DNA of 64,000 nucleotides, taken from contig NZ_FRCX01000003.1 of assembly GCF_900143065.1 (NCBI RefSeq), forward strand, positions 62,001 to 126,000. The letters are read 5' to 3'. Below are positions 9,657 to 30,879 of this stretch, piece after piece (positions within the stretch are counted from its first letter, which is position 1; each line of letters starts with the position of its first letter). The notes beneath the pieces are model-generated. The model was given only the letters and a program-made list of their open reading frames with translations. It searched no databases and was not told where the DNA came from. This DNA comes from Duganella sacchari (lineage in GTDB: Bacteria; Pseudomonadota; Gammaproteobacteria; Burkholderiales; Burkholderiaceae_D). The translations under genes and the position numbers were made by a program.

Positions 9657-9659
9657 TGC

Positions 9660-13453: not shown

Positions 13454-14329
13454 ATGAACACAGGTATCTTGTACGCCACGCTGGCGTTCCTTTGCTGGGG
13501 TCTGTTCCCGCTGTACTTTCACGCCATCGGTGAAGTACCGCCCATGGAAATCCTCGCGCACCGCATGCTGTGGTCGCTGTTGTTTCTGGTGCTGGTCCTG
13601 AGCGCGCGCCAGCAATGGAAATGGTTCCCCAAAGTGCTGCAGCAGCCCAAGGTACTGCTGAGCTTTGTGGCCAGCTCGCTGCTGCTATCGGCCAACTGGG
13701 GCGTCTACATCTGGTCGGTCAACAATGGCCACGTCATTGATGCCAGCCTGGGCTACTTCATCAATCCGCTGGTCAACGTGCTGCTGGGGCAGCTGGTGCT
13801 CAAGGAATACCTGCGCCGCGGCCAGTGGATGGCGATTGCGGTGGCGGCCGGCGGCGTCGCCTGGCTGACCTGGCAATCGGGCCAGCTGCCGTGGATTGCC
13901 TTAATTTTGGGCATCACCTTCGGCGCTTACGGCCTGCTGCGCAAAACCGCCGCGCTGGCCGCACTGGAGGGCCTGTCGCTGGAAACCATGATGCTGTTCC
14001 CGCTGGCGCTGATCTATGTGCTGTGGCTCAGCTATCATGGCGACAATGCCTTCATCAACACGCCGCACGACAGCACACGCTGGCTGCTAGTGGCCGCCGG
14101 ACCGATTACCGCGATTCCGCTGCTGCTGTTTGCGGCCGGCGCGCGCCGGATTCCGATGGCCGTACTGGGATTGCTGCAATACATGTCGCCCACCATGCAG
14201 GCGCTGCTGGGCGTGTGGGTGTTCCATGAAGCGTTCACGGCAGACCGGCTGATCGGCTTCCTGATTATCTGGGCAGCGCTGGCGCTGTATGTGGCCGAAG
14301 GGCTGTGGACCGGCAGGCGCGCCAAATAG
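13454..14329 (+). CDS. rarD: RarD family EamA-type transporter
   Basis: The 291-residue protein has ten hydrophobic helices and the two-fold EamA/DMT layout, with RarD hallmarks WGLFPLYFHAIGEVPPMEILAHRMLWS and GVYIWSVNNGHVIDASLGYFINPL split across helices 1-4. It is an inner-membrane drug/metabolite-type transporter; RarD was linked to chloramphenicol resistance in Pseudomonas but its substrate is unknown. The ATG at 13454 is used because the 15 residues encoded upstream do not look like RarD. It is the last core gene before the accessory island. Confidence 0.92.
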   Translation: MNTGILYATLAFLCWGLFPLYFHAIGEVPPMEILAHRMLWSLLFLVLVLSARQQWKWFPKVLQQPKVLLSFVASSLLLSANWGVYIWSVNNGHVIDASLGYFINPLVNVLLGQLVLKEYLRRGQWMAIAVAAGGVAWLTWQSGQLPWIALILGITFGAYGLLRKTAALAALEGLSLETMMLFPLALIYVLWLSYHGDNAFINTPHDSTRWLLVAAGPITAIPLLLFAAGARRIPMAVLGLLQYMSPTMQALLGVWVFHEAFTADRLIGFLIIWAALALYVAEGLWTGRRAK

Positions 14330-14330
14330 T

Positions 14331-14370
14331 GGGAAGATGACGGGATTTAGCGTATCCTGTCGTCCTTCCC
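14331..14370 (+). terminator. Long hairpin after rarD, possible terminator
   Basis: GGGAAG pairs with CTTCCC, and an inner TGACGGGAT pairs with ATCCTGTCG through two wobble pairs, closing a seven-base loop. It starts one base after the rarD stop codon. The T-run after it is weak, so it may be a Rho-aided or processing hairpin. Confidence 0.45.
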
Positions 14371-14529
14371 TGCATTTCTACCAACATACATCGAGACCTC
14401 TCAATGGCATTTATGGGGAGGAAAAAACGTAAACAGCCTTGACCGTGAATAAGGACACGCCTCTTCGCAACGGAGGCATAAAAAATGTAAACAAATATGC
14501 GACCGTACACTGCTGTTTACACTTTCTAA

Positions 14530-14664
14530 ATTTTTGCGGAAGATGGTTCTAGGGAGCCGCTGACTAATTCACGACTTCCGGTTCAGCATCGCTTTTCAGA
14601 GGAAAAATTCCACACCACCCGAAACGCGTGGCGCAAAGTAACGCCGATCCATGCAGATCGGCGT
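14530..14664 (+). ncRNA. Candidate structured RNA ending in a strong terminator
   Basis: No open frame covers this stretch. It begins with a six-base helix CGGAAG/CTTCCG enclosing a short GGTT/AGCC hairpin, continues through a CCAC...GTGG hairpin with a GAAA-containing loop followed by CGCAAAG, and ends in the terminator at 14641-14664. The order hairpin-with-GAAA then CGCAAAG recalls part of a GEMM (c-di-GMP-I) aptamer, but the closing helices of that class are not present. An unnamed small RNA or a leader cut off from its gene are both possible. Confidence 0.3.
14641..14664 (+). terminator. Intrinsic terminator
   Basis: ACGCCGATC-CATGCA-GATCGGCGT is a perfect nine-base stem followed by TTTT on the plus strand. 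No plus-strand gene lies within 300 bases upstream except rarD, so it may end an RNA gene. Confidence 0.8.
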
Positions 14665-14903
14665 TTTTATTTCCTTAACGATAAGCCCGTGTGTCCGGTC
14701 CATTTCCGGGAGTCCCCCTCTCGGTCAACAATACTCTCGCCCCACTCCGGAATGATACAAGAACGATCGAGGGTGTAGACTCGTTCGGCCAAGCTCTCGG
14801 ATTAGCGATTACCTGGCTCGGAAGATATCCACTTTGGTTTCCAGGCATTTGCGTAAGCTAAGGTCATTCGTCCCCACCTCAAACCAGCCCCCCCCGGTTT
14901 TTG
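14665..14903. other. Probable left flank of the genomic island, no gene seen
   Basis: Only short frames interrupted by stops were found. The left end of the accessory island should fall here or a little further right, before hsdR. No copy of the right flank (30760-30879) could be recognised by eye. Confidence 0.4.
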
Positions 14904-15104
14904 CTAGAAATCCTGGCCTCGCCCGATTTTGATAACCCAACCATTGTCCAAACGGATTTCCCGATCATGCATGTTCGGGTTGGCGATCTCCACAGCGCGC
15001 CAGCCCTGCCACAGTACGCCGGCCAGCAGCAGGAGGTGGACCACCAGCACGCAGTAGAACAGCGGCCGGTTCGCCGGGCCATATCATAATTTACCGCTGT
15101 CCAT
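14904..15104 (-). pseudogene. Small membrane-protein gene with an in-frame stop
   Basis: An ATG at 15104 follows a very good AGAAGGAGAGG ribosome-binding site. After six codons (MDSGKL) there is a TGA at 15084-15086. The same frame then continues for 59 codons with a clear membrane helix (LFYCVLVVHLLLLAGVLWQG) and a charged tail (NMHDREIRLDNGW) to a TAG at 14904. The strong start and coherent downstream frame point to a recently inactivated gene of about 66 codons. The family was not recognised. A sequencing error would also explain it. Confidence 0.45.
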
Positions 15105-15197
15105 CGGCCTCTCCTTCTGTATCTGATCGTGTCAGAACCTGAACACTACCGCAAAATTAACCCAAACGGATTAACGGCGATATCCTGCGCGAAACGA

Positions 15198-18100
15198 CTA
15201 AAGCTGGCCACCGACACCTTTAAACTTTTCCACAAACGATGCAATTTTTTGGAACACGCTCTGCTTTTTGATGAGATATTGCGGATTGAGGGGGCTCATC
15301 TTAGGAAGAACGGCATTGAGCTCCGTACCATTATCACTGGCAAATTCTCGTTTAAGCGAAGTAGTAATATAGCGCCTTGCAGCCCCTTCGTTTAGGTTTT
15401 CATCGTTAATCAATTCAGCAGCCTCACGATTCTGCTCAGATTGAGCAAAGGTGAAGAAAGCGTCGATCACGCCGGCTTTGTCACCAATCTTATCCAGATC
15501 CGTTTGATTGATGAAGTCCACCAGCAAACTCTCCTTGGCGCGATTTCCCAAGCTTGTGCGAATCACGCGGCGAGCTTCATCCACAAGTTCCGACTTGCTC
15601 TTGATCTTCTTGTTGTGCTCGAAGATCAGCTCCAGGATGTAGTCCAAGTTGATTTCCTGCGACTTCAGCAGGTCCACCTCAAACACGACGTCATCCCAGT
15701 CGATGGTGGACTTTTCCGTCTCAGCTCCAGCTTTCTCACGCCGTAGCCAGTCACGAACATCATTGTATGTTGATCGGTAATCTTGAATTTTCCGCTCAGC
15801 AGGGACTGTAATGGCTTGCAGTGAGGCCAGATCGTCATCGCCCAGATAGTGTTTGGCCTTAAATGCCTCCACCGCTGCCGGGTCGCTCAAATCGACGCTT
15901 TGTAATTCCTTCAGGCTAGCAAACTCATCATAGTTTTGCAGCACGTTTTCCACGCGCAAATACTCGCCAAACAGCTTGGCGAACGCCTTCTTGTCGGCTT
16001 CCTTTTCAATGGCTGCGGGGTCCGGAAAACGTGTTTCCAGCTCTTTCACCACATCTATAAAACCACGCCGCGCCTCACCGGTGGCCGTATCGGTAAAGCC
16101 TTCCATGTATTCCTTGTAGCTTTTCTCCAGCACTACGTTCTTAGTATTCTTGTCGCCGAACAAAGTGATGGCGTCGATGGTCGCCTGTTCGAGGTCGCGG
16201 AAGGTGACGATATTACCGAAGGTTTTGGTGGCGTCAAAGATGCGGTTCGTGCGCGAATAAGCCTGCATCAGTCCGTGGTAACGCAGGTTCTTGTCCACAA
16301 ACAGGGTGTTCAACGTGGGCGCATCAAAGCCCGTCAGGAACATGCCTACCACGATTAGCAGGTCGATTTCCTTGGCTTTGACCTGCTTGGCCAGATCGCG
16401 GTAGTAGTTTTGAAAACCATTGCTGTCTACACTGAAGTTGGTTTTGAACAGCGCGTTGTAGTCAGCAATGGCCGCGCTCAAAAACTCTTTGGCACTGCTG
16501 TTCATGGCTGCTACATCAAAACTTTCGTCCTGAATATCGCCAATCGCATCCTGTTCTTCATTGGCCGCGAACGAGAAGATAGTGGCGACCCGCAAACGCT
16601 TGTCGCTGTCCTTCTGTAATTCCTTGAATGACTCGTAGTAAAGCTTGGCCGCGTCCACGCTGCTGACCGCAAACATGGCATTGAACCCTTTGTTGCCCAC
16701 TTGCAAGCGGTGCGTCTTCTGCCGGAAATTATTCAAGATGTAATGAGTGATCTCACGGATGCGGTCGGAGTGCAGCAAGGCCTGCTTGTTTTCCGCCGCA
16801 CTCAGCTTTTTCTCGTCCTTCTCAGTTTCGACGGCCTTGAATTGCGGGCGGACATCGTTGTAATCCACCTTGAATTTCAGAACCTTTTCGTCACGAATAG
16901 CATCGGTGATTACATATGAATGAAGTTCGCGCCCAAACACACTGGTCGTGGTTTCAGCGCCCAGCGCATTATCTAAGAAGATCGGTGTGCCGGTAAAACC
17001 AAACTGGTAGAACTTCTTGAACTTCTTCTTTAGGTTCTTCTGCGCCTCGCCAAACTGGCTGCGGTGGCATTCATCAAAAATGAATACCACCTGCTTGTCA
17101 TAGATGGGAAGGTCGACTTCGCTCTTCATCAGGTTGTTGAGCTTCTGGATAGTGGTGACGACGATCTTATTGTCGTCCTTCTCAAGATTGCGCTTTAGGC
17201 CCGCTGTGCTATCTGATCCATTAACACTATCCGGTGAAAAGCGCTGGTATTCCTTCATGGTTTGGTAATCAAGATCCTTGCGGTCCACAACAAAAAACAC
17301 TTTGTCGATGAACTCCAGTTCCGTAGCAAGACGCGCCGCCTTGAAACTGGTCAGGGTCTTGCCGGAGCCGGTCGTATGCCAGATAAAGCCACCGCTTTCC
17401 GTATTGCTCCAGTTTTTTGCCTGATATGTGCTGTTGATCTTCCACAAAATGCGTTCTGTGGCGGCAATCTGGTAAGGGCGCATCACTAGCAACGTATTGC
17501 TAGTATCAAAGACTGAGTAATGCAGTAGTACATTGAGCAGAGTGTGTTTCTGGAAGAAGGTGGCTGTGAAGTCCTTCAAGTCTTTGATGAGGCTGTTGTC
17601 AGCCTTAGCCCAGTTCATGGTGAAGTCGAAACTGTTCTTATTACGATGCGTGGTGTTTGCAAAGTAACGGCTGTCGGTGCCATTGGAAATCACGAATAGC
17701 TGCAAATACTTGAATAAGGAATACTCGCTGTTGAAGCTCTCTTTGCTGTATCGATGCACCTGATTAAAAGCTTCGCGAATTGCCACGCCTCGTTTTTTAA
17801 GCTCTACCTGAACCAGCGGCAAGCCATTGACCAGAATCGTCACGTCATAGCGATTAGCATGCGTGCCGGTCTGCTCAAACTGCTTGATGACTTGAATTTT
17901 ATTACGGGAGATGTTCTTCTTTTCCAGCAAATATATATTCTGAATATGCCCATCGTCAAAGACAAAGTCGTGAATGTAATCGTCGGTAATCTTGCGGGTT
18001 TTCTCGACAATGCCATCGCTGGGTTTGTCCAGCCATGTCTCAACAAAGCGTAGCCACTCACAGTCGGCGAACTGCGTGTTATTGAGTGCTTGTAGTTGTA

Positions 18101-18296
18101 CACGCAAGTTAGCTAGCAATGCTTGGGGCGTATTCACGCCAGGCAGGTATTCATAACCTTGATTTTGTAGATCTTGAATGAATTCACGCTCCAGATCTCC
18201 TTCACTCTGGTAGCTTTCTGGGACTTTCCACTCTTGGGAATATTTATCCAGAATAATGAAATTTTTCGATTCTGCAATGGGGTTGTATTCGATCAT
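15198..18296 (-). CDS. hsdR: Type I restriction enzyme, restriction subunit HsdR
   Basis: This 1032-residue motor and nuclease subunit has an N-terminal endonuclease domain with the PD-(D/E)xK-like [19 protein letters not shown], then a superfamily 2 translocase with Walker [16 protein letters not shown]-like [11 protein letters not shown] and motif III FTGTPIF, and a helical C-terminal domain. The start at 18296 overlaps the prrC stop codon by four bases (ATGA); an upstream ATG at 18314 is less likely. It is the last gene of the hsdM-hsdS-prrC-hsdR operon. No internal stop or frameshift is visible, so it should be functional. Confidence 0.96.
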
Positions 18297-19558
18297 GTGC
18301 TTTTTTCCTGCCAAAATTGATGACGATCGACAATGTGCTTGACCAATTTCTCCAGAATCTTCTTTTCTTCTGGCTTTAGGGGCGGAACTTCTTCGGCGGC
18401 GTGCTTCGAATGACTCGAAAAATTTACAATCCGTTTTGCGTAGGGGTTAGGCAATCCATCGTCTGTTTCGGGTAAGAGATACTCCCACCTTTTGTACCCA
18501 AGGAATATTGCCGTTTTCTCTAGTACATTTCTTAGCAAATTAAAGTGATATTTTTCAATCTGCCCACTTTTTATGGCTTCTTCAAGCTGTGATATCAGAT
18601 GCAGGTGATATGAGAAAGGAGAATCGTTTGGCTGTTCGATTAGGTGAACACTGCCGTCTTCATTTTTTTCAAGTCGCGATTTACTAAACCACTTTGACTT
18701 CCAGCTGTAGCGTTCCGTTTTTTCGTCGCTACCAAACTCGTTGCAAAGCACATTAAAAAAAAGCGGATTATGCGTCGTGATAATGAATTTAACATTGGAT
18801 GCGTTTAACTTAACCAACTGCGCAAGATCAACGGCCAACTGAATCAAATGGTTATCGTCCAGAGAACTGACCGGGTCATCAACAAAAATATATTCTAGCT
18901 GGTCAAATTGATCAGTTTCGCGCTCGTCAGGCTCAACAATATTAAGAACGCTAATTACTTGTTCAATCAGTGTGTAAAAAACACTCCAAATAAAATTGCT
19001 TTCTTCGCCTTTGGATATTTTCATAATCCCAGAATGCTCATCATCGCCACCCTCAAGCGAGAAGGTCACTTCCGAAAACGCTGGGATCGTGATCTCTTTG
19101 TTGTCTTTATCTTTAAATTTATATTCTACGTTGAAACGTGGCGTAAGCTTGTTATTGGTATAGCGCTGAAAATTTGTGATGATGTTCAGGTCTTGGCCTT
19201 GGTCTCTTAGTACCCAATCCGTAAATGAATTTGTCTGAATTTTCAGCTTTGATTTGCCATGGCCATCCAAATCATTGTCCCAATAGAACAAATCTTCAGT
19301 AAAAGAGTTGTAATAAAGTATTTTGTTACGCGACAGTTCAGGTTGATCGATTTCGTCATCGCCATCTAGTTTAGATGCAATTATCCTTTTAAATTCCCGT
19401 GACAATTGTGTTTTACCAGTGCCATTAAAGGCATAGATGAGTTGAACCTTTGGAACAGGTTTTATCTCTTCTACTACCTTTGTTGTCTCGGCTACAGTTT
19501 TCTGGACCTTCTTAGACGTGCTTAGCTGTCGGGCGATTTCATTTAGAGTTTTTCCCAT
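18293..19558 (-). CDS. prrC: PrrC-like anticodon nuclease
   Basis: This 421-residue protein matches the PrrC layout. Its ABC-type ATPase part has Walker A FNGTGKT at 44-50, an ISKGEE signature at 181-186, Walker [14 protein letters not shown] at 223-235 and an H-loop TTH at 261-263. The C-terminal nuclease part has LLRNVLEK and NFSSHSKH, which supply the candidate catalytic triad Arg343, Glu347 and His383. In E. coli PrrC the equivalent triad cleaves the tRNA-Lys anticodon loop when phage T4 disarms the host type I enzyme. The gene sits between hsdS and hsdR, the same order as in the E. coli prr locus. tRNA specificity cannot be read here. Confidence 0.92.
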
Positions 19559-19559
19559 T

Positions 19560-20732
19560 TTACATCTCCACTACTGCCCGCTTCGGGAACACCAACAGTA
19601 AATCGCGATAATACTCGTATTGCTTTTGGCGCAATTCGATTTCGCGTGGCAAACCTTCTCTGGTGGAATTTGCCAGTGCATCGAATTTATCGAGGATGGC
19701 GACGATGCGAGCCTGTTCGGCTAGCGATTTCTCCGGATCGTCGGCATATGGAATGGGAAGATTAAAGTTCTTTATGATGCTTGAGTTAAGGTCACCTCTA
19801 GGGCCTTGCCCAAGCGACTTAATGGTTTCATAGTTAAAACTTACCCAATGAAAAATATAGCGATATAATGCCTTAGTACTGTCAATTTCCAAACAACCGC
19901 AGTGTTGATTTGTTGTTAAAGGAATTTTATTGATCGCGGACCTGCCTGCTGTGGCCCCCGATATTGCTATAATTACGCAGTTTGCGGGAATCCACTTTGC
20001 CGACGAAGCTTTCACTGCGGCCTGAGTTATTTTTACGTCTGTAATCTCAATATCGGAAAATTTCACTTCTTGGGTTCTTAGCCAAGGAATATCCCCATCA
20101 TCGTAATATTCTGGTTCGCCAGCTGTTGGTGTTCCACCTGAGTACCATTTCTTAGTTACGTCTCCCAACGTCTTCCACTCCACTTCTCCTTCTTCAAAAC
20201 TCAACAACTGCTCGCGATAGTAATTGTATTGTTTTTTTCGGGCTTTCAGCTCCGCTTCCAACTCCGCTTCCAGTTTGGAAAAAGTGTCAAGTACATTCAC
20301 AATTTCTCGCTGAACTTCAAGCGGCGGGACGGGGATTTGCAACTCGTTCAAGACGGATTGAGTTTGGCTGGGCACGCCTCCCGCTTGGTTCATGTCGCCA
20401 AGACCTACCGTTGTCAAGAAGTAGTAAAGGAATTTCGGGCGAATCTGTGCTTCATCAATTTCCGTATAGAAGATAGTGTCAACATTCCAGAACGGAACAT
20501 CGACGAAGAATAGATTACCCAGCGAACCTTTCCTCGGAATTAACACGGAAGGCTTGTTGTAAGCGTAGGTGTTGGCATACCGCATGATTCCACCGGAGCC
20601 GAAAACTGGAAATTCACCATCAGCAAGCTGCTTATGATCCTTACCGTTCTTAATGCGGACAATGTCGCCAAGACGCTTGAATTCCACACCCTCCGGGCAA
20701 TGTTCGGCAATGAGGTCATCAATACGATTCAC
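19560..20732 (-). CDS. hsdS: Type I restriction-modification specificity subunit HsdS
   Basis: The 390-residue protein has two target-recognition domains, each followed by a conserved helix: the first ends near [22 protein letters not shown] and the second near [19 protein letters not shown]. The two repeated C-terminal motifs [13 protein letters not shown] and [13 protein letters not shown] mark the half repeats. Each domain should read one half of a bipartite target, which cannot be predicted. The start is a GTG overlapping the hsdM stop codon (GTGA). The prrC gene begins one base after its stop. Confidence 0.95.
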
Positions 20733-22285
20733 GCTTCAGTCTCCCCACCATCAATTTCGGCCACGATGGCATCAATCTCCGCACGTAGTTTGTCTATTTT
20801 ATTTACGGTGATTTTCAGCTCTGCATTGAGTTGGGCAATTTCCACAATCTCGCGGTTGTCCTTGGCCTCAACGTAGCTGCTGACTGAGAGGTTATAGTCG
20901 TTAGCGGCCACATTCTCAATCGGTATGGACTGAGCAAAGTGATCCACATTCGCCTTGCTATCAAACACCGCCATAATCTGTTTAATGTGCGTGTCCAGCA
21001 GCACGTTGTTATTGGCTTCTTTCTTGAACAGGCCGCTAGCGTCTATAAACTGAGTGGCAGTGTCGGTTTTGTGTTTGGACAACACTAGAATGTTCACGCC
21101 GATTGTAGTGCCGTAGAACAGGTTAGGTGCCAGCGAAATCACGCTCTCAATGTAGTTGTTGTCTACTAAGTATTTGCGGATCTTCTGCTCGGCGCCACCT
21201 CGGTAAAAGATGCCAGGGAAGCAGACAATGGCAGCTCGGCCTTTGGCAGAGAGATAGCTGAGCGAGTGTAAAACAAATGCAAAGTCGGCCTTGGATTTGG
21301 GAGCCAGCACGCCAGCTGGGGCAAAGCGTTCATCGTTGATCAGAGTGGGGTCGTCGCTACCGATCCACTTTACCGAGTACGGTGGATTTGAAACGATGGC
21401 ATCAAAAGGTCGGTCGTCAGCGAAGTGAGGTTCTTCTAGTGTGTTGCCCAGCCGGATGTTGAATTTGTCATAGTTGATGTTATGCAAAAACATGTTCATC
21501 CGCGCCAGGTTGTATGTGGTGTGGTTGATTTCTTGCCCAAAGAAGCCCTCTTCAATGATGTGCGCGTCGAAGTGCTTTTTGGCTTGCAGCAGCAGCGAGC
21601 CCGAGCCGCAGGCAGGGTCGTAGATTTTGTTGACACTCGTTTGCTTGTGCATAGCAAGCTGTGCGATTAGCTTAGACACATGCTGGGGGGTGAAAAACTC
21701 GCCCCCTGATTTTCCGGCGTTGGCAGCGTAGTTGGAAATCAAGAACTCGTAAGCATCGCCAAACAAGTCAATGTGGCTCTCGTCGAATACGCCTAAATCT
21801 AGTTCGGCCACACCCTTGAGCACGGCAGCGAGGCGTGCGTTCTTGTTTTTAACGGTATTGCCTAGACGGTTGCTAGTGGTGTCAAAGTCAGCAAACAGAC
21901 CCTTAATGTCCTGTTCGGATGGGTAACCGTTAGCAGACGCTTCAACAGATGCAAAAATGGTAGTTAGGTCAGTATTCAAACTTTCGTTAGAGTTGGCATT
22001 TGCTACCACTGTGACAAAAAGCTGGCTTGGGTAGATGAAATAGCCTTTAGTCTTAATAGCATCGTCTTTGATTTCAGGCGTGATAACGCCATCGTCAAGT
22101 TGTGCATATTTGATGCTGGAATCACCACCCTCAATGTAGTTGGCGAAGTTTTCGCTGATAAAACGATAAAACAGCGTGCCAAGTACATACTGCTTGAAAT
22201 CCCATCCGTCCACTGCGCCTCGTACAACATTGGCAATTTGCCAAATTTGACGTTGTAGAGCGGCGCGTTGCTGAATACTTACCAT
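20729..22285 (-). CDS. hsdM: Type I restriction-modification methyltransferase subunit HsdM
   Basis: The 518-residue N6-adenine methyltransferase has an N-terminal helical HsdM domain ([17 protein letters not shown]), the S-adenosylmethionine motif [12 protein letters not shown] and the catalytic motif IV NPPYS. The C-terminal helices ([22 protein letters not shown]) should dock with HsdS. It is the promoter-proximal gene of the four-gene operon and ends in a GTGA overlap with hsdS. GC content is visibly lower than in core genes nearby. Confidence 0.96.
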
Positions 22286-22326
22286 TTTATCAATCCATTT
22301 TCAATATATTACGAGTGGGGCAACTT

Positions 22327-22356
22327 TATACATTTCAGGTACTCTTGACCAGTCAA
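22327..22356 (-). promoter_or_regulatory. Predicted hsd operon promoter with overlapping palindrome
   Basis: On the minus strand, TTGACT (22351-22356) and TGTATA (22327-22332) are separated by 18 bases and lead into hsdM. TTGAC-CA-GTCAA (22345-22356) is a small palindrome over the -35 element, a plausible operator for the XRE controller-like protein encoded at 24211-24456. Confidence 0.45.
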
Positions 22357-22477
22357 AGAGAGAGATTACTGATGTGACGAGCCGTTCATGATATGAAAAA
22401 AGCAAAAACCAGCATCAGCGGCCCCCTTATGGCGAAAATTGGTCAAACAGGGTGTACCCAAATTGGCCATGTCGCCA

Positions 22478-22522
22478 CTAGGTGGCCAAAATAGGTTAGA
22501 CCAAGTCTATTTGTCCACCTAG
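22478..22522. repeat. Inverted repeat in insertion-sequence debris
   Basis: CTAGGTGG at 22478-22485 is repeated inverted as CCACCTAG at 22515-22522. Several TTGGCCA-type words lie around it, and a short minus-strand frame ends at 22496. Repeats of this kind are common at transposon ends; the element was not identified. Confidence 0.4.
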
Positions 22523-22608
22523 TTTTTGGCCACTCCATTTGGCCTTCTTCGGCCCCTCCGAGCGGGCGCCGGGCGCCGGCGGCTCCGATTTGGCCGTCAG
22601 GCTGTTGA

Positions 22609-22791
22609 TCAGCTCCTGTTGCGTCGTGACTTGGGGGCGTAGAGCCTATCACGATGCCCGATGAAGTCGGCCATGTCGTTTTGTCCGTCATCCTTTTTCA
22701 TGAACTCCACGGTGCCGAGTTTTGAATTGTATCCACTTAAGGTTAGGTTACCAAGTTGGTGGGCACAGCGCTGGCATATAACGGGGAAAGC
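22609..22791 (-). pseudogene. Fragment resembling the DUF1524 (GmrSD-like) HNH domain C-terminus
   Basis: The minus-strand frame encodes HQLGNLTLSGYNSKLG followed by a Lys/Asp-rich tail. This matches the LGNLTLxGYNSxL motif that closes the DUF1524 nuclease domain of DUF262/DUF1524 (GmrSD-type) type IV restriction proteins. The upstream part is replaced by transposase sequence, so only about 60 codons survive. The assignment rests on one motif. Confidence 0.45.
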
Positions 22792-22804
22792 TTTGACGTC
22801 CTGG

Positions 22805-23052
22805 ATCGTCGTAGATCGCGTCTTCGACGCCTTCGTCCGACAGACCGAAGCACTGCTGGGCAATGTACATGCGCAGAATGCGCTCCAGACCAATCGCGGG
22901 CGACCACGGCCATAGCCCTTCGGGTAATACGGCAAGATCGCCGCCACCAGCGCCGGCCAAGGCGTAGCGGCTTCGATCTCGGCCAGGAAGCGGTCGCGCC
23001 GCGTCAGCTTCTTTTTGCTGGCGTACTCAGCATCGGAAAAGCTCGACTGCAT
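22805..23052 (-). mobile_element. IS5-family transposase, N-terminal fragment with frameshift
   Basis: The frame from 23052 begins MQSSFSDAEYASKKKLTRRD and continues through EIEAATPWPALVAAILPYYPKGYGRGRP, the typical IS5 transposase N-terminus. Near 22897 the similarity jumps to another frame (AIGLERILRMYIAQQCFGLSDEGVEDAIYD). It then stops, joined to the DUF1524-like fragment. Only about 80 residues remain and the catalytic DDE domain is absent, so it is a dead remnant. Confidence 0.85.
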
Positions 23053-23225
23053 GCTCAGATCTCGCTGTTACGAAACAGATATTGTGGCACCTTGCTGCCG
23101 AGCTGAGGGCATTGGCCAGCGATTAAACCAGCACTTCCCTAGACTGTTCTATGCCAGAGGTATTGAGTACTATTGGGGCAACTACATAAGGAAAGCGATC
23201 CCGTTTTCGTTACTCGTCCAACTCC

Positions 23226-23786
23226 ATGAGAAATCCATCCCTAAGTACGCGTCAGTTAGCCGATCAATTGCTGTTTCCTGGGCCGTTCGATGGGGGACTG
23301 AATTCCGGTGTGTTTGTTCAAGTGTCTTCCAACGAAGAGTCCATTAAATTTTTTGGTGATTTGGCTCCGATGCTAGAAGCCGGCGGGATGCTTGTGGTCG
23401 TGATCGATGCGCCGAATCTCATGTTCGAAGACGGGCTACGGCGACTCGCTCAACTGCTTCGCACAAGATGTGAGATCAAATGTGCCCCTGTAAGTGGGAC
23501 AGACGAATTAACGCTGGCGGATGCCCTAGCAAACATCATGCAAATTCAGTCATGTACAGTGGTTTTGCTCCTTGGCAGCGCACAACGACTACCAGCCGAA
23601 CCGGGAGAGCGAGTTATGAAAGCCATAAAGGCGGCTAGAGATTGTGTAAATCTCGAGCCAAATTCCACGGGAAGATTGTTGCTTGTGGCAACCTGGATTC
23701 TTCCTGCAAATCCAAGCCAATACGTTGAGAATCCCCACAGCGCCTTCTATGGCGCAACTGCCGTAAATTTGGAGAACATCAAATAA
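23226..23786 (+). CDS. Degenerate AAA-type ATPase-like protein
   Basis: This 186-residue frame has the scaffold of a small AAA/ExeA-like ATPase: FFGDLAPMLEAGGMLVVVIDA near the start, then VVLLLGSAQRLP and GERVMKAIKAARDCVNL and a FYGATAVNL ending. Where Walker A should be it reads VSSNEESIK, with no GKS/T, and where Walker B should be it reads LLLGSAQ rather than an acidic DEAQ. It therefore looks catalytically dead, and it stops early compared with relatives I recall. No clear ribosome-binding site is visible. It may be a pseudogene or a diverged binding protein. Confidence 0.5.
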   Translation: MRNPSLSTRQLADQLLFPGPFDGGLNSGVFVQVSSNEESIKFFGDLAPMLEAGGMLVVVIDAPNLMFEDGLRRLAQLLRTRCEIKCAPVSGTDELTLADALANIMQIQSCTVVLLLGSAQRLPAEPGERVMKAIKAARDCVNLEPNSTGRLLLVATWILPANPSQYVENPHSAFYGATAVNLENIK

Positions 23787-23889
23787 ACAGTTGGAAGCCT
23801 AAAGGAACAGCTATCGCAAGGCTTTTGAAGGATTGAGCAAGGCAGTGCGAAAAATTGAGGTAATTTGGACAGTGGCTACGACGTCCCGC

Positions 23890-24177
23890 TCATAGCAGAT
23901 ATTCAGGAGTTGAAGGTGCAATCAAAACGCTAAGTCGCTGCGGGACACCATTGATGGACCTCAGGCATATTCGATTGTCCCCCGCCCATATCGCTAAGCC
24001 GTCGGGCTGTATGCACATGCACAAAATCACGATCGCTTCGATGACAAAATCCACCTCGTCCATCACAGGACTGGCAACTCCGAAGGCCTGACTGTATATA
24101 GCTCGTCGTAAATGGTACCGGTGATAACCACGTGGGGGCCGCTCGTACACGCGGAGGTGAGATGCGTCTATTTTCAC
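23890..24177 (-). CDS. Hypothetical protein downstream of the XRE regulator
   Basis: A GTG-started 95-residue frame follows the regulator gene after 33 bases on the same strand. Its sequence has mixed composition (VDFVIEAIVILCMCIQPDGLAIWAGDN) but matches no family I know. It could be a small cotranscribed partner or a chance frame. Confidence 0.3.
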   Translation of the reverse strand: MKIDASHLRVYERPPRGYHRYHLRRAIYSQAFGVASPVMDEVDFVIEAIVILCMCIQPDGLAIWAGDNRICLRSINGVPQRLSVLIAPSTPEYLL

Positions 24178-24210
24178 ACTATTTGAGGCACCCGGGTGCA
24201 GCCCAAAAAA

Positions 24211-24456
24211 TTAATTCGGAATTAGCAACTTATAGGTCTCCACCTTGAACGCAATAGCGATCTTCTCAACGTTATCGATTGAAATATTTCGAGCCTGCCG
24301 CTCGACGTGGGCTATGAACGTGCGGTGTAGCCCTGCTTCGAACGCCAGCATTTCCTGAGACCAGCCCCGCTGTTCACGAAATTTAACAATATTTCTCGCC
24401 ATCACAGCACGAGCGGTGAAAGTATTAAGTGGACTGTTCGGCGAGGTAGGAGACAT
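24211..24456 (-). CDS. XRE-family helix-turn-helix regulator, controller-protein-like
   Basis: This 81-residue protein is essentially one Cro/CI-type HTH: NIVKFREQRGWSQEMLAFEA then GLHRTFIAHVERQ and NISIDNVEKIAIAF. The size and the LHRTFIxHVER helix resemble restriction-modification controller (C) proteins and short XRE regulators. An internal ATG 18 codons in is an alternative start. It lies 1.9 kb upstream of the hsd operon on the same strand and may control hsd expression, but no direct link is visible. Confidence 0.75.
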   Translation of the reverse strand: MSPTSPNSPLNTFTARAVMARNIVKFREQRGWSQEMLAFEAGLHRTFIAHVERQARNISIDNVEKIAIAFKVETYKLLIPN

Positions 24457-24654
24457 TTGTGCTCAGTGTCACAAAATGTCGCTTTTAAGTCAGCCGCGTT
24501 TACGTCACAATTGCGATTTGCGCGCTTCTTGACCCCTAAACTTAACAGGGCGAGCGTCGCTCAGGGAGACCTTGCGCCCCCTATTCGTAGCCTCTGGCGA
24601 CGCCAACTTGGCGAGCCAAGTGAAGTCTTTCAACGCACATTAATCGGAAATTGA

Positions 24655-25086
24655 ATGCTGAAACATTACTTAGTTGCATCGACTGATGACTCCATAATAC
24701 ATTGGGAACCAAAACTCGTAGCGGCAGAATCATCTGAAGATGCACTACAAAAATATCTTCGCGTAATCTATTCTAAAGACGAGGTGTTTAGGGAGTCTGT
24801 TTTGGACCTTACAATAAATTTCGGTTTTGTGAGTCGATTTATTTTAGAAACTCCAGAGGAGCATCGTCACTACAATAAGAAAGGATCGGTTATAACTAAA
24901 ATGTCAACCGTCCACCAGCGGGTTAGAAAGTTCTTCGCAACCGAATATTCTTTCGCGGAAAGATTTCTACAATACATGAAGACGCAAAACCCTACTCTGA
25001 TCGATAATGATATGTATGCGTATATCGCTGCTACGGAACCTGAAGGTTTGATAGCAGTAGATTTAGAATCAATCGAACGCATTTGA
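24655..25086 (+). CDS. Hypothetical protein, AT-rich orphan in the island
   Basis: This 143-residue soluble protein has no signal peptide or membrane segment. The N-terminus (MLKHYLVASTDDSIIHWEPKL) and SSEDALQKYLRVIYSKDE suggest a small alpha/beta fold, followed by a helical middle (MSTVHQRVRKFFATEYSF). I do not recognise the family. It is the only intact-looking plus-strand gene inside the island besides the AAA-like frame and is clearly more AT-rich than core genes. A role in phage defence is possible from location alone. Confidence 0.65.
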   Translation: MLKHYLVASTDDSIIHWEPKLVAAESSEDALQKYLRVIYSKDEVFRESVLDLTINFGFVSRFILETPEEHRHYNKKGSVITKMSTVHQRVRKFFATEYSFAERFLQYMKTQNPTLIDNDMYAYIAATEPEGLIAVDLESIERI

Positions 25087-25341
25087 TACGATCTGCTGGC
25101 ATAGTTCAATCATTCGACATAGCATAAATAGCTGGCGCTCTGGGTAGCAGCGCCTATCAACGGTACTGTGCATATGGCAGTATCTTATATAAACCGACGA
25201 TACAATAAAATATTCTGGATAGATTGGTAGGAGACATTTACATTGTAAATACAATTATCCACAATAACAGTGACAGCAATTCTATTATTTCTCTGCATAT
25301 CGTAAAATTTAACTAGAAAAATTCTTTATATTCAAGTCAAA
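25087..25341. other. 255-bp AT-rich gap inside the island
   Basis: No gene, clear terminator or repeat was seen. It separates the plus-strand orphan gene from the end of the leftward gin operon. Confidence 0.6.
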
Positions 25342-25797
25342 TCATTCTTTATTTTTTGCAGAATTCTTTGCTGAACGATCTCGGCGCACCTCAGGCAATG
25401 GCTGATTCATGAAATCACGCATGCGTACATCCATTTGCTTTAGGTAACCGTTATAGACCCAGAGATTAAATTGCTCTAGCAAATTATTGTTTTCCCGTTT
25501 GAGCCGTTCGTTTTCAGCCTCGAGATGAACAATGCGCTGAAGTTCTGGGGTAGTTGGGTTGATTTCCTTGAGAGTTCGTCCAGCTAAGTCTCGCTTACGT
25601 GCCGCAAATGCATCCTTGATCCGCATGTGATTGTGCAAAGCTTGACGAGTGTACTCTGCACGCAAACGCAGTGTGATCTGTTTTATCAATAACTCCCAGG
25701 TAAGCTTGGGAGATGACCATGCATCGAGTATCGCTACAATCTGCATAATGGTATTGTCATCGAGATTTCTTGCACGATTATATCGTTGCGAATGCAT
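25342..25797 (-). CDS. ginD: GinD/TnpC-like coiled-coil accessory protein of the integrase module
   Basis: The 151-residue basic protein has an N-terminal helical region and a central coiled coil (ELQRIVHLEAENERLKRENN), then a Lys/Arg-rich tail. It follows ginC with a one-base overlap (TAATG). A small fourth gene after several tyrosine recombinases is the arrangement of GInt islands (ginD) and, with two recombinases, of Tn554 (tnpC). It is probably an architectural DNA-binding partner required for recombination. Confidence 0.75.
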   Translation of the reverse strand: MHSQRYNRARNLDDNTIMQIVAILDAWSSPKLTWELLIKQITLRLRAEYTRQALHNHMRIKDAFAARKRDLAGRTLKEINPTTPELQRIVHLEAENERLKRENNNLLEQFNLWVYNGYLKQMDVRMRDFMNQPLPEVRRDRSAKNSAKNKE

Positions 25798-27938
25798 TAG
25801 CGGACTACCTTACCTTGTTGGCCCATATTCGCTAGATGTGCATGTACATCTTCGAGCGAGGTTATTGCCAGATTGGTTGATGTGCTTAGCCACCGACGCT
25901 CTTCTTCAGCCAAAGCCAAGCGAGATGATGGGCTTACGCCGCTCAACTGGATCACTGAGCCGACCGGCACGTTCGGATCATCGAGTATGGCGACTAGTTC
26001 ATTCAGTCGATTCAGGGTCTTTGTCTGATACTGGAACCATTCCGCTGCACCCAGCACTTCCTCAGAAAATGCCTTTCTTGCATTTTCTTGCAAAAGCGCT
26101 GTTTCGACTTGGGCACTACGAAGATTTGCCTCAGCCCTTAGATCCCCCTTCACACAAACCTCCTCGTTGCAGTTTATGCAGTCCTGATGCACCGGACATG
26201 GTGTTTGTGCATAATCGTGAACACAATATCCGAACTCGGTTGTATGAGCAGTGATAATTTTAATACTGGCATATTCCTCCCTTCTAATAAATATGCGATT
26301 ATCGATGTTTGAAAATGGCCCAACCGATAGCGTGGGATCGCCAACTGCATTACGCAACTTTGCAATTACATCACGATCAGACTGGTGATTGTAAATAGAG
26401 TTTTGCCGCACATTCTCACGCCCCGACCACGTGGCAATTTCCTGTTCGCTCAGCGTTCCAGATTGGCGTGCAAGTGTGTTAAGGTAGTGACGAAGCATAT
26501 GTGTGGATAGGCTTAGGAAATCGCCATTCGTTTCTCTGTAGCCTCGCTTCTCGAAAATAGACTTCGAGCATGTTACGGTTTTCAAGGATCGTCGAAGGAT
26601 TTTGTAATTAATACGATCGAAGCAGCAATTCGATGGAACTGTAGTGGAATCAAACTCCGATACTCGCGCAAGGCAAAGAGCCTCGCTATAACGCATTTCC
26701 CTCTCGGCGTCCATAAATGGAAAACCGTCTGGTAATTCCTTCAGCACTGCCTGCTCTAAGTCCGCAAACGCTACAGTGGTTCCTTTCCCACGTATAGAAA
26801 TACGATTTACTTGATGAGCGTCCAGCCATTTAAGTATTCGACCGCTTTGCACGCGCGAAATTATATTCAATTTTCCACTAAATAAGATTGCGAAAATCTC
26901 ATGCTGATCGATTCGATCACGACTGCGAAGTGACTTTAACTCCGGTGAAAGATATATCTTATCCGGATTTTCTTCGTACCATAAAGCAAGTATCCGGGCC
27001 GGTGCGCTTAACTTGCGTAGATTCGCAACCGCACGCACCGCTATTTCGCGCATCGATGGGATCACAGTCTTCACCATTGGTTTCGCCCCCTTAGCGGGGA
27101 ACCATCTTAGTCCTGTCCCTACCTCGCCACTATCAGGGTCTGTCCAATCGGGCGTCACAATGTCTAGTGGAGCGTACAGCATCTCAACTGCGCGATCCGG
27201 TGAGCACAACATCAATGCGCATATAGATGAAGCGAAAATCGCATTTGGATCATCAGTGCTGGAATTAAAAATTTCTGCCAGCGCTTGAAGTGCTAAAGGC
27301 GACGGCATTTTTTTCTGTCTGTCAAAGTCGAATTGTTCACCTACTCGATTACGTATTTGCCGAGGAGAGTGAATGGGTGGCGTCCATAAACTAGGTGCGG
27401 CCAACAACCCGAGTTCGACCGAAGCTCGGTAAATTAGGTTCAGATTCCAAGCTATTTGGCACGCCGTATTATGAGAAAGATCTTTGATAGAAAGAGCCAT
27501 CGCTCGATTCATCACCTCTGGCGAAATAACCGTAGGACAGCTGCATTCATTTACCTCATACAAGGCTGCTTCGACGTAACGAAATGCATCGAGCCGATAA
27601 GGAAGAGCTGCGGGTTTTTCCCAGCGGTGCAAGTGAATAAGCAACGCTTTAGCGTAGGATCGGAAAGGTTCTCGCATCAGAAGTGCATCCGGAACATCTG
27701 AAGGCTTTCCCTTGCCCTTGCGGTGTCCTCTGGCATCGAACCCTAATTGAGCGAAATAAACAAATTTTCTATCCCCGCCTTTAACGTCTAGGCCGGCTAT
27801 GCTCCATGCCTCATGCTCAAAACGATTGTCATTGACTCCTAAAGGATTTCCAGATACACGCATCAGGTGAATGAAGTCATTTAGATTTGCCTCGGCATCC
27901 AAAGTAGAGCGGGGAACGAATCGAACTATATTATTCAT
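25797..27938 (-). CDS. ginC: Tyrosine recombinase GinC-like, large
   Basis: This 713-residue protein has a long N-terminal region and a diverged tyrosine-recombinase domain. The catalytic motifs are THMLRHYLNTLA (His-x-x-Arg), ATWSGRENVRQNSIYNHQSD (candidate nucleophile Tyr) and a first-arginine candidate in SPDRAVEML. After them comes a Cys/His-rich segment, YCVHDYAQTPCPVHQDC, with further Cys residues, probably a zinc-binding module. The ATG at 27938 overlaps the ginB stop codon by four bases; a longer frame to 27989 would sit inside ginB. It should act with GinA and GinB in moving the island. Confidence 0.85.
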   Translation of the reverse strand: MNNIVRFVPRSTLDAEANLNDFIHLMRVSGNPLGVNDNRFEHEAWSIAGLDVKGGDRKFVYFAQLGFDARGHRKGKGKPSDVPDALLMREPFRSYAKALLIHLHRWEKPAALPYRLDAFRYVEAALYEVNECSCPTVISPEVMNRAMALSIKDLSHNTACQIAWNLNLIYRASVELGLLAAPSLWTPPIHSPRQIRNRVGEQFDFDRQKKMPSPLALQALAEIFNSSTDDPNAIFASSICALMLCSPDRAVEMLYAPLDIVTPDWTDPDSGEVGTGLRWFPAKGAKPMVKTVIPSMREIAVRAVANLRKLSAPARILALWYEENPDKIYLSPELKSLRSRDRIDQHEIFAILFSGKLNIISRVQSGRILKWLDAHQVNRISIRGKGTTVAFADLEQAVLKELPDGFPFMDAEREMRYSEALCLARVSEFDSTTVPSNCCFDRINYKILRRSLKTVTCSKSIFEKRGYRETNGDFLSLSTHMLRHYLNTLARQSGTLSEQEIATWSGRENVRQNSIYNHQSDRDVIAKLRNAVGDPTLSVGPFSNIDNRIFIRREEYASIKIITAHTTEFGYCVHDYAQTPCPVHQDCINCNEEVCVKGDLRAEANLRSAQVETALLQENARKAFSEEVLGAAEWFQYQTKTLNRLNELVAILDDPNVPVGSVIQLSGVSPSSRLALAEEERRWLSTSTNLAITSLEDVHAHLANMGQQGKVVR

Positions 27939-29485
27939 TCTCCAGCCCCATCCATGATTTGACGGCAGCGAAGGATGACTTGCGCACACCCAAGGATGGC
28001 CCGATCGTTGATCGCCGCAATTCTCGGGTCAGCGGTAGCCATTAAATGCTCACGTCTTGCTAGCATATATTGCAACGCAACTTCGTGAGGACCATTCAGC
28101 CATGGTTCGAAATCGTGACAGCCCCCATAACAAGCAATGGGGCGCGCAAACCCGCAGTGAGCGTGGCTTCCGCAACTACCCATGCTCTGGCCGCTTTGAT
28201 CGACGCGCAGGTCAATGATGCGACTTGCTGGTCCTGGACGTGTAGCACCATTTTCCCCATCAATAATCTTTCCACCGAATGCCATGGCTAACGGGGCCAT
28301 GTCCATAGCGATCTTACGGCTGAACGCAGCACGTATTCGTGTGGTCAAACCGACGTATACCTTCACGTGCCGTGTATCCGAATGGTCCATCAATTCGGCA
28401 AGCACCAGAATTGGCCATCCCTCTTCTGCAGCTCGCGTCGCAAATGTACGCCGAAAACGTAGAGGACTTACTGTCATGGGCTTGCCGTCCAACCGCTCTG
28501 ACGGAACCCGCAGTGAATTAATAACTGTCATGACTCGCTGGGATAGAACAGATGATGTTTGATGAAATTCCAGTCCTTCGCAGTTCGCACTTTCCAAATG
28601 CTTCCACTGTGGAAACAGCGGTGCTTGAGCTGGATCAGCTAATAGGCCAACAAACTTAATTCGAATAGTGTCCACGTACGCCGCCAGTGGCTTACCAAGC
28701 TGAACAACAAGTTTTCGTTCTTTGAATTCGCCTCTGTATAGATGCCCCGACTGCTTAGCACGCGGAACACGCAAAATATAATCACCGTCCGCAGTCAATG
28801 GTAAAATCAGATCGCAACATTTTAGTGATGCGAGCTGAGTCGGACGGACTCCGAGTGACATCAACAGATAACATAATAGTATTTTTTCGGTGCTTATTTT
28901 ATTGCGTGCATAAGCGGCGTTAAGTGCAGACTGAATCGCCTCAAATTCAAGATCGGTTAATGGACCATTATTGGGATCGAGTGTCGCCACAGCTACACCA
29001 ACAGGACTTTGTTTAAGTGTTAAACCCGTTAAATAGCTTTCGATCTCTTTATCAAGGCCTGGCGCACCTAACTTGCACCATCTCTTAAGGAAACCGCGGT
29101 TAACTGATAGAAGATACGCGGCTTTGTCCGATGACATTTTGAAGTCCGAGATGTCGTCCCGCATAACGCATCGAATAGGAGGCGGGCGATTCGCCGTTAA
29201 AAAACGAGTGATCGCTAAAAATCCTTCAAAGTGCCTTATTGCGGTCTCTGCTGCTCTATTTTCGAAATACCAGATCAGAGTCTTTTTCAGCCCAATCAGC
29301 ACCGTTAAAGCCACATCAGGTAGTAGCTGAAAATTTACGGAAATATTTGAACTGCCATCGCGAAAAGCCCATAACGAAGTATTCGGATCGAACTCGATGC
29401 CACTGCGCGTCTTTGCGATCTTGGGCAATGACTGAGTTGCTCGATCAAAGATAAATTGATCTACAGCATTTTCTTTGGATTCCAC
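27935..29485 (-). CDS. ginB: Tyrosine recombinase GinB-like
   Basis: The 516-residue recombinase carries LGVRPTQLASLK (first Arg), PLRFRRTFATRAAEEG (His replaced, second Arg region), LAELMDHSDTRHVKVYV (His/Trp box and candidate Tyr) in its middle third. The last 110 residues hold a Cys/His cluster (CGSHAHCGFARPIACYGGCH) that looks like a metal site. The start is a GTG that shares one base with the ginA stop codon. Three successive recombinases with such overlaps mark a single integration module. Confidence 0.87.
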   Translation of the reverse strand: MESKENAVDQFIFDRATQSLPKIAKTRSGIEFDPNTSLWAFRDGSSNISVNFQLLPDVALTVLIGLKKTLIWYFENRAAETAIRHFEGFLAITRFLTANRPPPIRCVMRDDISDFKMSSDKAAYLLSVNRGFLKRWCKLGAPGLDKEIESYLTGLTLKQSPVGVAVATLDPNNGPLTDLEFEAIQSALNAAYARNKISTEKILLCYLLMSLGVRPTQLASLKCCDLILPLTADGDYILRVPRAKQSGHLYRGEFKERKLVVQLGKPLAAYVDTIRIKFVGLLADPAQAPLFPQWKHLESANCEGLEFHQTSSVLSQRVMTVINSLRVPSERLDGKPMTVSPLRFRRTFATRAAEEGWPILVLAELMDHSDTRHVKVYVGLTTRIRAAFSRKIAMDMAPLAMAFGGKIIDGENGATRPGPASRIIDLRVDQSGQSMGSCGSHAHCGFARPIACYGGCHDFEPWLNGPHEVALQYMLARREHLMATADPRIAAINDRAILGCAQVILRCRQIMDGAGE

Positions 29486-30759
29486 TATGAGATGTCCGGG
29501 ATGTTGAGTTTTTCTTGCAGCGCCAATGCGGCTTCGGCGGCTCTTTCTTGCGAGAATCGTTTGGTATAGCGACGAGGAGAGTCTGAAGTCTCACTCCAGC
29601 CACCAAGCTGCGTCAAAATATTGTTAATTTCCACATCGCTCTTATTCGCCCTACTGAGGTCTTCCGCTAGATTGTCAAAAAATGTGTGTCGCAAGACATG
29701 TGGTGAGATTTTTTCAGAAAAATACTCATTCAGCGTACTAAAAATTCTATTTAATTCTGATTTACTCATAGGCGCGCCACTATTCGTCACTATCAGAAAA
29801 TCATGTTTTCCACGAACTAATTCATGGCGCACCATTAAATATGCTTTCAACAGTACATGCAAGGGATAGGATACGGGTAAAACCCGGTCGCGCGTTTTTG
29901 TGTTCGGCTCATTTAATCTCGGATCGTCCTCATCGTCTGGTCTACGCAAGATCAACACTTCTCTTGTCTGAGAATTAAAATCCCCAACGCGAAGTCCCAG
30001 AAGTTCGCCACGCCGCACTCCAAGGGCCAAAATTGCAAAAACAATGAACTGATTTCTCAAACGGATACCTTTCCCCGTCCAAGGATTTTGTAGATCCGTC
30101 GGCGCGATGATGCGCAAGAGCCGTTCTTGCGTTTGGCGCCCGAGCCCCATTCGTCTTCCTTCATTTGCACGTTCGGTCACTGCGGGAGTTTTGTTCTGCA
30201 GTTCATCGTCGATAAGGTTGCGCAACGCTAATAAATTCGCCTTTTTTTCGTTTTCAGCACGCGCAATGACGTTGTTGACGCGCCATTTCAAGTACTCACG
30301 AATATAGCCCAACCTGATGGCTGTGGTGCCCGCGCTGACACTTCCGCCTCGGGGACGCTTCGCCCGTGCCATACGAAATTTCTCAAGCGAACTGACTTTG
30401 TTCACTTTCTGATCGTTTAAATCAACGTCGTCCTCAAGATATTTCACGCTAGCTGCCACAGTCTGCCTACACATTTTTGAGATAGCTTCTACCTCAGCTA
30501 GGGAGAGAATATTTCCTGTACGAAGGCGCTCACTAAGGTTAACCTTGCGAAATTGGAGGGCGAGATATAAGACGGCCACACTTCGTAGGGCTTGGGCAAT
30601 GGTTTCACTCGCAAGATTTTTGTTCCGCAGAGAACTAACCACCCACAAAGTCGCATCAAAGTCAGGGAGTCCAGTGGCCCGGACAACCAAGACAGGAAGA
30701 CGTTCCCCATCCGCCATGCGAACTAGCTTCACCAAAAAAGGAGCGGCTTGTTGACTCAT
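29485..30759 (-). CDS. ginA: Tyrosine recombinase GinA-like
   Basis: This 424-residue enzyme is the most canonical of the three: LGVRRGELLGLRVGDF (Arg I), PHVLRHTFFDNLAEDL (His-x-x-Arg II), QLGGWSETSDSPRRYTKRF with the nucleophile Tyr. It also has a SAM-like core-binding N-terminal half. It is the first gene of the ginABCD-type operon and lies closest to the right edge of the island, only 120 bases from ettA, as expected for a recombinase gene next to its attachment site. Confidence 0.92.
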   Translation of the reverse strand: MSQQAAPFLVKLVRMADGERLPVLVVRATGLPDFDATLWVVSSLRNKNLASETIAQALRSVAVLYLALQFRKVNLSERLRTGNILSLAEVEAISKMCRQTVAASVKYLEDDVDLNDQKVNKVSSLEKFRMARAKRPRGGSVSAGTTAIRLGYIREYLKWRVNNVIARAENEKKANLLALRNLIDDELQNKTPAVTERANEGRRMGLGRQTQERLLRIIAPTDLQNPWTGKGIRLRNQFIVFAILALGVRRGELLGLRVGDFNSQTREVLILRRPDDEDDPRLNEPNTKTRDRVLPVSYPLHVLLKAYLMVRHELVRGKHDFLIVTNSGAPMSKSELNRIFSTLNEYFSEKISPHVLRHTFFDNLAEDLSRANKSDVEINNILTQLGGWSETSDSPRRYTKRFSQERAAEAALALQEKLNIPDIS

Positions 30760-30879
30760 TTGTGAGGTACCTAATAATGAAATTATTGCAACTTCAAAAA
30801 ATTTCGACCCAAAAATAGAATTCCTTTAAAATCAGTAGATTACGCCTTTTTTATTTACGTTTCCAGAAAGATCAACTTA
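30760..30879. other. Right junction of the island, upstream of ettA
   Basis: This 120-base AT-rich stretch must hold the ginA promoter, the right island end and the ettA promoter. No core-type direct repeat shared with the left flank could be picked out by eye. Confidence 0.45.

Follow-up and report, generated by a model that had tools for sequence, protein, structure and literature searches.

What kind of element lies upstream of ettA in Duganella sacchari, where does it begin and end, and what does its sequence suggest about the work of its recombinases? The question is raised by a stretch of 64,000 nucleotides (contig NZ_FRCX01000003.1, positions 62,001 to 126,000 of the forward strand), hereafter called the window and numbered from its first letter, in which four overlapping minus-strand genes stand beside ettA in the manner of the ginABCD operon of GInt genomic islands. 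An earlier note, made from the letters of the window, had proposed a GInt-like element here. We are highly confident that the start codon of ettA is here the insertion site of a GInt of 16,476 bp whose structure is complete, and the proposal is borne out by the operon order, by imperfect flanking repeats, by a position at the 5' end of the gene that the type GInts target, and by the tripartite layout of gin operon, cargo starting at the ginD end and short AT-rich 3' end.

Both ends were located by the comparison that the earlier note had suggested, that of the rarD-to-ettA interval with relatives lacking the island. An ettA query found matches in 78 of 80 related genomes, and 30 of these loci were examined, namely the window's own and those of 29 genus relatives. 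rarD lies within 1.5 kb upstream of ettA in 21 of the relatives and was not found there in eight, while gin, HsdR and PrrC were all missing from the 1.5 kb beside ettA in the 29, so that no gin-less relative was found to carry the hsd-prrC region at this place. The predicted empty site, in which the left flank of the window up to 14403 is joined to the right flank from 30880 (123 nt), aligned over its full length in 12 of the 29 relatives; identical columns numbered 102-115, and relative L005 matched best (115/124). These empty sites place the island between CTCAATGGCA (14400-14409) and CTTAATGGCA (30876-30885), two imperfect direct repeats that agree at 9 of 10 positions. They fit the imperfect repeats of 10-11 nt, with proposed 6-nt staggered cuts, given for GInts in excerpts of Bardaji et al. 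2017 (PMC5385486). The left copy has C, as do the close relatives L004, L005 and L029, and the right copy has T; the exchange would therefore have fallen within the AATGGCA that both copies share. The left end had earlier been set at 14665. This position is ruled out, because the relatives' match to the left flank runs to 14400-14409 and then passes into ettA; the end moves outward by about 260 bp, and a start at 14665 would have missed the far terminus at 14410-14525. The element is AT-richer than its surroundings, as had been noted for the cargo (GC 0.473, against 0.629 in positions 1-14400 and 0.603 from 35501 on). The features of the two ends are as follows.

14400 to 14409, strand not assigned: far (cargo-side) attachment (att) repeat CTCAATGGCA, with the putative exchange in the AATGGCA common to both copies
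14410 to 14560, strand not assigned: far terminus (GInt 3' end), with boxes at 14427-14435, 14485-14493 and 14514-14522, a T-tract, and CCCATAA (minus strand) abutting the att repeat
30760 to 30879, plus strand: ginA-side terminus, with a box at 30852-30860 and promoter-like sites toward ettA
30876 to 30885, strand not assigned: ginA-side att repeat CTTAATGGCA, which includes the ettA start codon (30880)

The recombination operon occupies the end of the element that adjoins ettA.

29485 to 30759, minus strand: ginA, tyrosine recombinase of 424 aa
27935 to 29485, minus strand: ginB, NF041502 integrase of 516 aa
25797 to 27989, minus strand: ginC, 730 aa from a GTG start, or 713 aa from the ATG at codon 18 (27938)
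25342 to 25797, minus strand: ginD, 151 aa

With the 713-aa start of ginC the genes overlap by 1, 4 and 1 bases, so the gene sizes and the overlaps of 1-4 bases reported before agree with the coordinates, the figure of 713 holding from the ATG at 27938; the 120 bases between the first gene, ginA, and ettA (30880) were likewise confirmed by measurement. Three tyrosine recombinases had been claimed. GinA and GinB pass the Pfam Phage_integrase cut-off of 27.1 bits (54 and 32 bits), and GinB also matches the NCBI model NF041502 (431.6 bits, cut-off 350); GinC fails the Pfam cut-off (E 0.18), although its structure model is most similar to Cre.

Genomes of the genus and order yielded seven complete ginABCD operons with this gene arrangement, whose proteins are 23-49% identical to the Gin proteins of the window. 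ettA was not found beside these operons in the fetched stretches, which held only weak matches to the ettA query (about 31%). GInts with such a GinC are sparse in these samples, GinC-like matches occurring in 9 of 74 genus genomes and in 4 of 399 drawn from the order, the own genome being counted in both. From a GinC profile scan of genome contigs the best 80 of 108 loci were taken; all four gin genes, some in pieces, were detected in 72 of these 80, and seven of the remaining eight start at a contig end. The gin context in the seven operons and in these 72 loci shows that the recombinases do not belong to an unrelated lineage lacking it, the outcome that the earlier note had named as damaging to its proposal. 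The nearest Gin proteins among the best 80 of 108 loci are about 40% identical to those of the window, and elements at the end of ssb are among them. According to excerpts of Bardaji et al. 2017 (PMC5385486), the DSM 4166 element needs each of the four gin genes for its excision as a circle and for its integration.

The target of the type GInts appears in text portions of the same work as an 'ABC transporter gene', PP_0674 in P. putida KT2440 (PMC5385486), and PP_0674 is called EttA in a passage of PMC11389600. The element of the window thus lies at the target gene of the type GInts, in the same arrangement. It is inserted exactly at the start codon, the 5' end of that gene, and leaves the ettA of the window unchanged. 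Another site is prevalent elsewhere: the C-terminal tip of SSB is encoded at most 420 bp before ginA in 50 of 68 loci (from the best 80 of 108, those in which ginA is complete and preceded by 100 bp or more) and not in the other 18, and ssb is a frequent GInt site in the accessible text of Bardaji et al. also (PMC5385486). In the genus of Pseudomonas cerasi the GinA profile matched in 78 of 298 genomes; 30 of these Pseudomonas loci were read, 14 with the SSB tip, three with ettA and 13 with neither. Ten Pseudomonas elements were then fetched, those three ettA loci and seven picked by score and frame length, and ettA stood beside the gin genes in all ten. The match to ettA starts there at residue 3, with other in-frame residues before it; the native Pseudomonas start of ettA is ATGGCTCAATAC. 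A 12-nt search for the far ends of these Pseudomonas ettA elements gave no convincing match.

The Pseudomonas ettA GInts (Pht-PAI / DSM 4166 type; PMC5385486) resemble the element of the window in ginABCD order, in a ginA that adjoins ettA and points away from it, in short imperfect repeats, in an AT-rich far end and, for the type strain, in restriction cargo. They differ in GinA-C proteins only 24-32% identical to those of the window, in an element-coded ettA start, and in having no cluster of the GTAAACA-type boxes described below. GInts at the 3' end of ssb, found in many Betaproteobacteria and in others, are in turn nearest to the element of the window in their Gin proteins (about 40% identical), resemble it in terminal boxes and in far-end architecture, and differ in the target. 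A GinC tree of 70 rows, which holds five of the ten Pseudomonas elements, places the window with full support in a group of 56 rows, of which 40 are ssb-type; the Pseudomonas ettA elements stand apart on a long branch of their own. In a tree of GinA, GinB and GinC together (45 rows, four of the ten), the window belongs to a supported set of ten with three ssb rows and six at other sites. Forcing the window and the Pseudomonas ettA rows together cost 23.5 (GinC) and 31.7 (GinA+B+C) log-likelihood units. The approximately unbiased (AU) test, for which the group was chosen after the first tree had been seen, did not reject the forced grouping (p 0.065 and 0.217). One origin of ettA targeting thus finds no support in the trees and is not rejected by the AU test; we favour, short of proof, an independent origin of ettA use in the lineage of the window.

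Short boxes of the GTAAACA type mark the ends of this element and of many others. The sequence TGTAAACA, on either strand, is present in 21 of 49 ssb-ginA gaps; 50 sets of dinucleotide shuffles gave an expectation of 0.72, and their 8-mers never passed a count of 9. Across the 68 loci, the wider pattern RYGTAAAYA occurs 52 times in the 170 bp at the start of ginA (4.5 per kb) and 61 times elsewhere (0.046 per kb), a density about 100-fold lower with AT content uncorrected; 35 of the 68 loci, and 28 of the 50 ssb loci, have it at the start of ginA. In the window, two copies of TGTAAACA are not unusual as a number (29 of 100 shuffles have at least two), but their positions, 14486 and 14514, fall within the proposed far terminus. 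RYGTAAAYA occurs six times in the window, which 2 of 100 shuffles reach, and four of the six are in the termini (14427, 14485, 14514 and 30852). Measured from the outer edge of ATGGCA, AAACGTAAA lies 21 nt inward at one end and 23 nt inward at the other.

The far terminus consists, in order, of a box, an inverted box, a box with T-tract, CCCATAA and the repeat, and the corresponding ends of the GInts of Rugamonas apoptosis and Paraburkholderia elongata can be aligned with it. Such an end, with three boxes next to the repeat, is found again in other GInts of Burkholderiales. An end pattern built from these three and allowed at most three mismatches was found in 5 of 52 genomes, once in each, while backward-read controls gave 0; the two genomes beyond the three sources are Paraburkholderia panacisoli (L070) and Duganella lactea, and all five matches lie on the cargo side of a gin operon. 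Since 47 of the 52 genomes had no match, the precise sequence of the end is not a general one. Behind the pattern in L070 comes GCGTTCTAA, which is close to the ssb tip of L070, CCGTTCTAA. A search for the far ends of ssb-type GInts with a 21-nt repeat of the ssb tip gave no clear match in 50 loci (best 5 of 21 mismatched), because in many cases the cargo extends beyond the locus and the actual repeat is not that long; box clusters and the end pattern were used instead. Bardaji et al. (PMC5385486) stated that they had identified nothing shared among 3' ends that could serve self-recognition. We found no earlier description of the terminal boxes, or of the GinC residue pattern given below, in the open-access literature, figures and supplements with end sequences or residue alignments aside.

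Several further loci show related arrangements. In the ssb-ginA gaps of L064 (1-140), L066 (1-361) and L055 (3290-3440), a GC-rich inverted repeat followed by T's is visible by eye between two inverted GTAAACA boxes, and it is perhaps a terminator for ssb supplied by the element. Paraburkholderia elongata (L107) has tandem gin operons (7194-12513 and 15474-20692) with a far-end signature between them at about 15218-15331. Tepidimonas fonticaldi (L078 and L079, one contig) has two gin operons about 22 kb apart with equal gene lengths and scores, and a far-end-like sequence followed by CCGTTCTAG (ssb tip) stands just before the second operon.

According to text portions of two previous studies, GinC lacks the first arginine (Bardaji et al., PMC5385486) and the RHRY motif and catalytic tyrosine (Idola et al. 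2023, PMC10214605). In our alignment of 86 rows (the window, 75 of the 80 loci, five having been dropped for length, and ten Pseudomonas elements, near-copies kept), GinC residues R266, K300, H497, R500, R524 and Y533 and a later Cys cluster are invariant in all rows, and the same residues are invariant in a second alignment of 57 rows. The pattern reads R-K-HxxR-R-Y, with Arg where tyrosine recombinases have His or Trp. GinA (80 rows) shows R-K-H-R-W-Y, with W and Y in 79 rows and one gap; GinB (80 rows) keeps R, K and R in 80, His in 76 and Tyr in 79, and is variable at the position of the first His. A profile comparison of GinC with GinB gave a probability of 93.2% and an E of 2.9e-07 (one comparison), pairing R500 with R345, R524 with H368 and Y533 with Y377, and one with GinA gave no significant match. 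The AlphaFold2 model of GinC has a mean pLDDT of 82.1, falling to about 53 at residues 531-540 around Y533; its best PDB match is Cre (E 4.1e-05, probability 1.00, TM-scores 0.27 and 0.50), and the GinC profile had two chance-level matches only among PDB sequences. The Pfam integrase family was matched in 14 of 57 GinC members at E up to 1 and is still their commonest match.

The GinC tyrosine is thus conserved and, in these alignments, paired with the presumptive nucleophile of GinB. This suggests a possible overlooked active site and makes GinC a candidate cutter of DNA. Taken together, these observations allow a tentative scheme to which we give somewhat less than even weight. In it GinC would be no inert helper but a catalytically competent third recombinase, in which an unusual Arg takes the position of the second active-site His; the trio, in the variants His...Trp (GinA), without the first His (GinB) and His...Arg (GinC), would divide the strand cuts at ends marked by GTAAACA boxes; and lineages would switch between the end of ssb and the start of ettA with their end architecture kept, ettA having been reached more than once.

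The cargo fills the interval between the far terminus and ginD.

14904 to 15050, minus strand: fragment matching MIT_C (phospholipase D-like), debris
15198 to 18314, minus strand: hsdR, type I restriction subunit, 1038 aa as called
18293 to 19558, minus strand: prrC, anticodon nuclease, 421 aa
19560 to 20732, minus strand: hsdS, specificity subunit, 390 aa, with two Methylase_S stretches
20729 to 22285, minus strand: hsdM, N6-adenine methyltransferase, 518 aa
22609 to 23052, minus strand: debris, comprising a DUF772 transposase-domain fragment (22748-22960) and a GmrSD_C-like stretch that stays below threshold
23226 to 23786, plus strand: open reading frame of 186 aa, perhaps a fragment, whose AAA_22 match is below threshold
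24211 to 24456, minus strand: XRE/HTH_3 regulator, 81 aa
24655 to 25086, plus strand: open reading frame of 143 aa without a family match

The four genes hsdM, hsdS, prrC and hsdR are open frames that each match their family, and together with the matches to HTH_3 and to the transposase fragment they support the cargo as first described, a type I restriction-anticodon-nuclease locus with an XRE gene and debris. PrrC matches the PADLOC model at 2.5e-140 and has R343xxxE347 and His 383/386, residues of the kind that form the nuclease site of PrrC. The prr locus of E. coli has the gene order hsdM-hsdS-prrC-hsdR, and its PrrC cleaves tRNA when a phage disables the restriction enzyme. The block of the window likewise has prrC between hsdS and hsdR but, unlike the E. 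coli locus, is carried by a GInt. No conjugation or phage structural genes were recognised among the reading frames scanned. Beyond the element, 170 bp past ettA, a GGDEF-domain gene of 764 aa (32717-35011, about 35% GC) is a separate AT-rich acquisition outside the GInt; it was seen in none of the 29 relatives' ettA loci, which reach only about 430 bp past ettA.

Whether the hsd-prrC block arrived with the GInt is a separate matter. That it came independently, by another element or by homologous exchange, and is merely housed by the GInt is compatible with the GInt assignment, and we hold this evenly balanced against its contrary. The PrrC search matched in 7 of 74 genus genomes (own counted), and in two of them (L213, L214) the block hsdM-hsdS-prrC stands elsewhere, with no gin genes in the 20 and 12 kb fetched. 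HsdM is 84% identical in both, HsdS 35% in both and PrrC 64% and 67%; HsdR is 86% identical in one, and the other block is cut by a contig end in prrC. The low HsdS identity beside 84-86% for HsdM and HsdR is what an exchange of target-recognition domains would produce. The window has a transposase-domain fragment next to the block, but no second pair of ends around the block was identified, and a Pseudomonas japonica GInt at ssb (L080, 15009-21934) has its own HsdR, HsdS, PrrC and HsdM, 26-35% identical to those of the window, so that GInts hold such blocks more than once. Restriction cargo has already been recorded in GInts, the DSM 4166 element included (excerpts of Bardaji et al., PMC5385486), and a passage of PMC10121019 reports defence systems carried by GInts of E. 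coli.

Two other readings concern the element itself. Strand-biased circularizing elements (SEs, intA-tfp-intB-srap), for which a copy-out route has been proposed, likewise carry a set of four recombination genes at one end, and they have a 6-bp spacer and lack transfer genes (text portions of Idola et al. 2023, PMC10214605). An element of that kind, or a Tn554- or RIT-like one, is nevertheless very improbable here: the Pfam-negative protein comes third, after two ordinary recombinases, whereas the tfp of SEs is second; the GinA-D profiles return the same four-gene order across most of the best loci; protein families differ; and the same text separates SEs from GInts and records none outside Gammaproteobacteria. 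An immobile relic, that is, an inactive GInt with intact-looking genes, is unlikely but weightier. The element is present as a single copy in the genome, no close relative of it was found (best GinC about 40%), megablast of the gin region found no plasmid match, and the stretch at 22.4-24.2 kb is partly decayed, so that some of the cargo is dead; these points also weigh against the main reading. Against a relic, all four gin genes are open, the conserved catalytic residues are kept and both termini are recognisable. A further point against the main reading is that the ten Pseudomonas ettA elements have no box cluster (0-1 RYGTAAAYA sites each), so the boxes are not a universal GInt feature.

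If the GInt is active, GinA, GinB and GinC with GinD are predicted to bind the terminal boxes and to exchange strands within the shared AATGGCA. The ends would be joined into a circle with the predicted junction CTTAATGGCATTTATG, also written CTTAATGGCATTTATGGGG, and excision would leave the empty site CTCAATGGCAAATTACG. Such a circle could enter the same ettA site in another cell, a transfer that Bardaji et al. did not demonstrate either, as far as excerpts of PMC5385486 go. While integrated, the ginA-side terminus may supply one or more promoters that take over from the native promoter of ettA, which the insertion has moved about 16 kb off; three promoter-like sites toward ettA, against 0.3 in shuffles, are consensus matches only, and for DSM 4166 a text portion of PMC5385486 states that reverse transcription PCR indicated expression of ettA driven by the element. 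The cargo would provide type I restriction with PrrC, by analogy with E. coli cleaving tRNA if a phage disables the restriction enzyme.

For the GInt family, the present analysis fixes the exact ends of a betaproteobacterial member and identifies the target printed as an 'ABC transporter' as the translation factor EttA. The occurrence of boxes in many GInts contrasts with the lack of a common end feature in the founding paper, and these boxes and the invariant tyrosine of GinC may serve as leads on the role of each recombinase in a trio. In Duganella sacchari, the element adds a phage-defence cargo to those carried on GInts.

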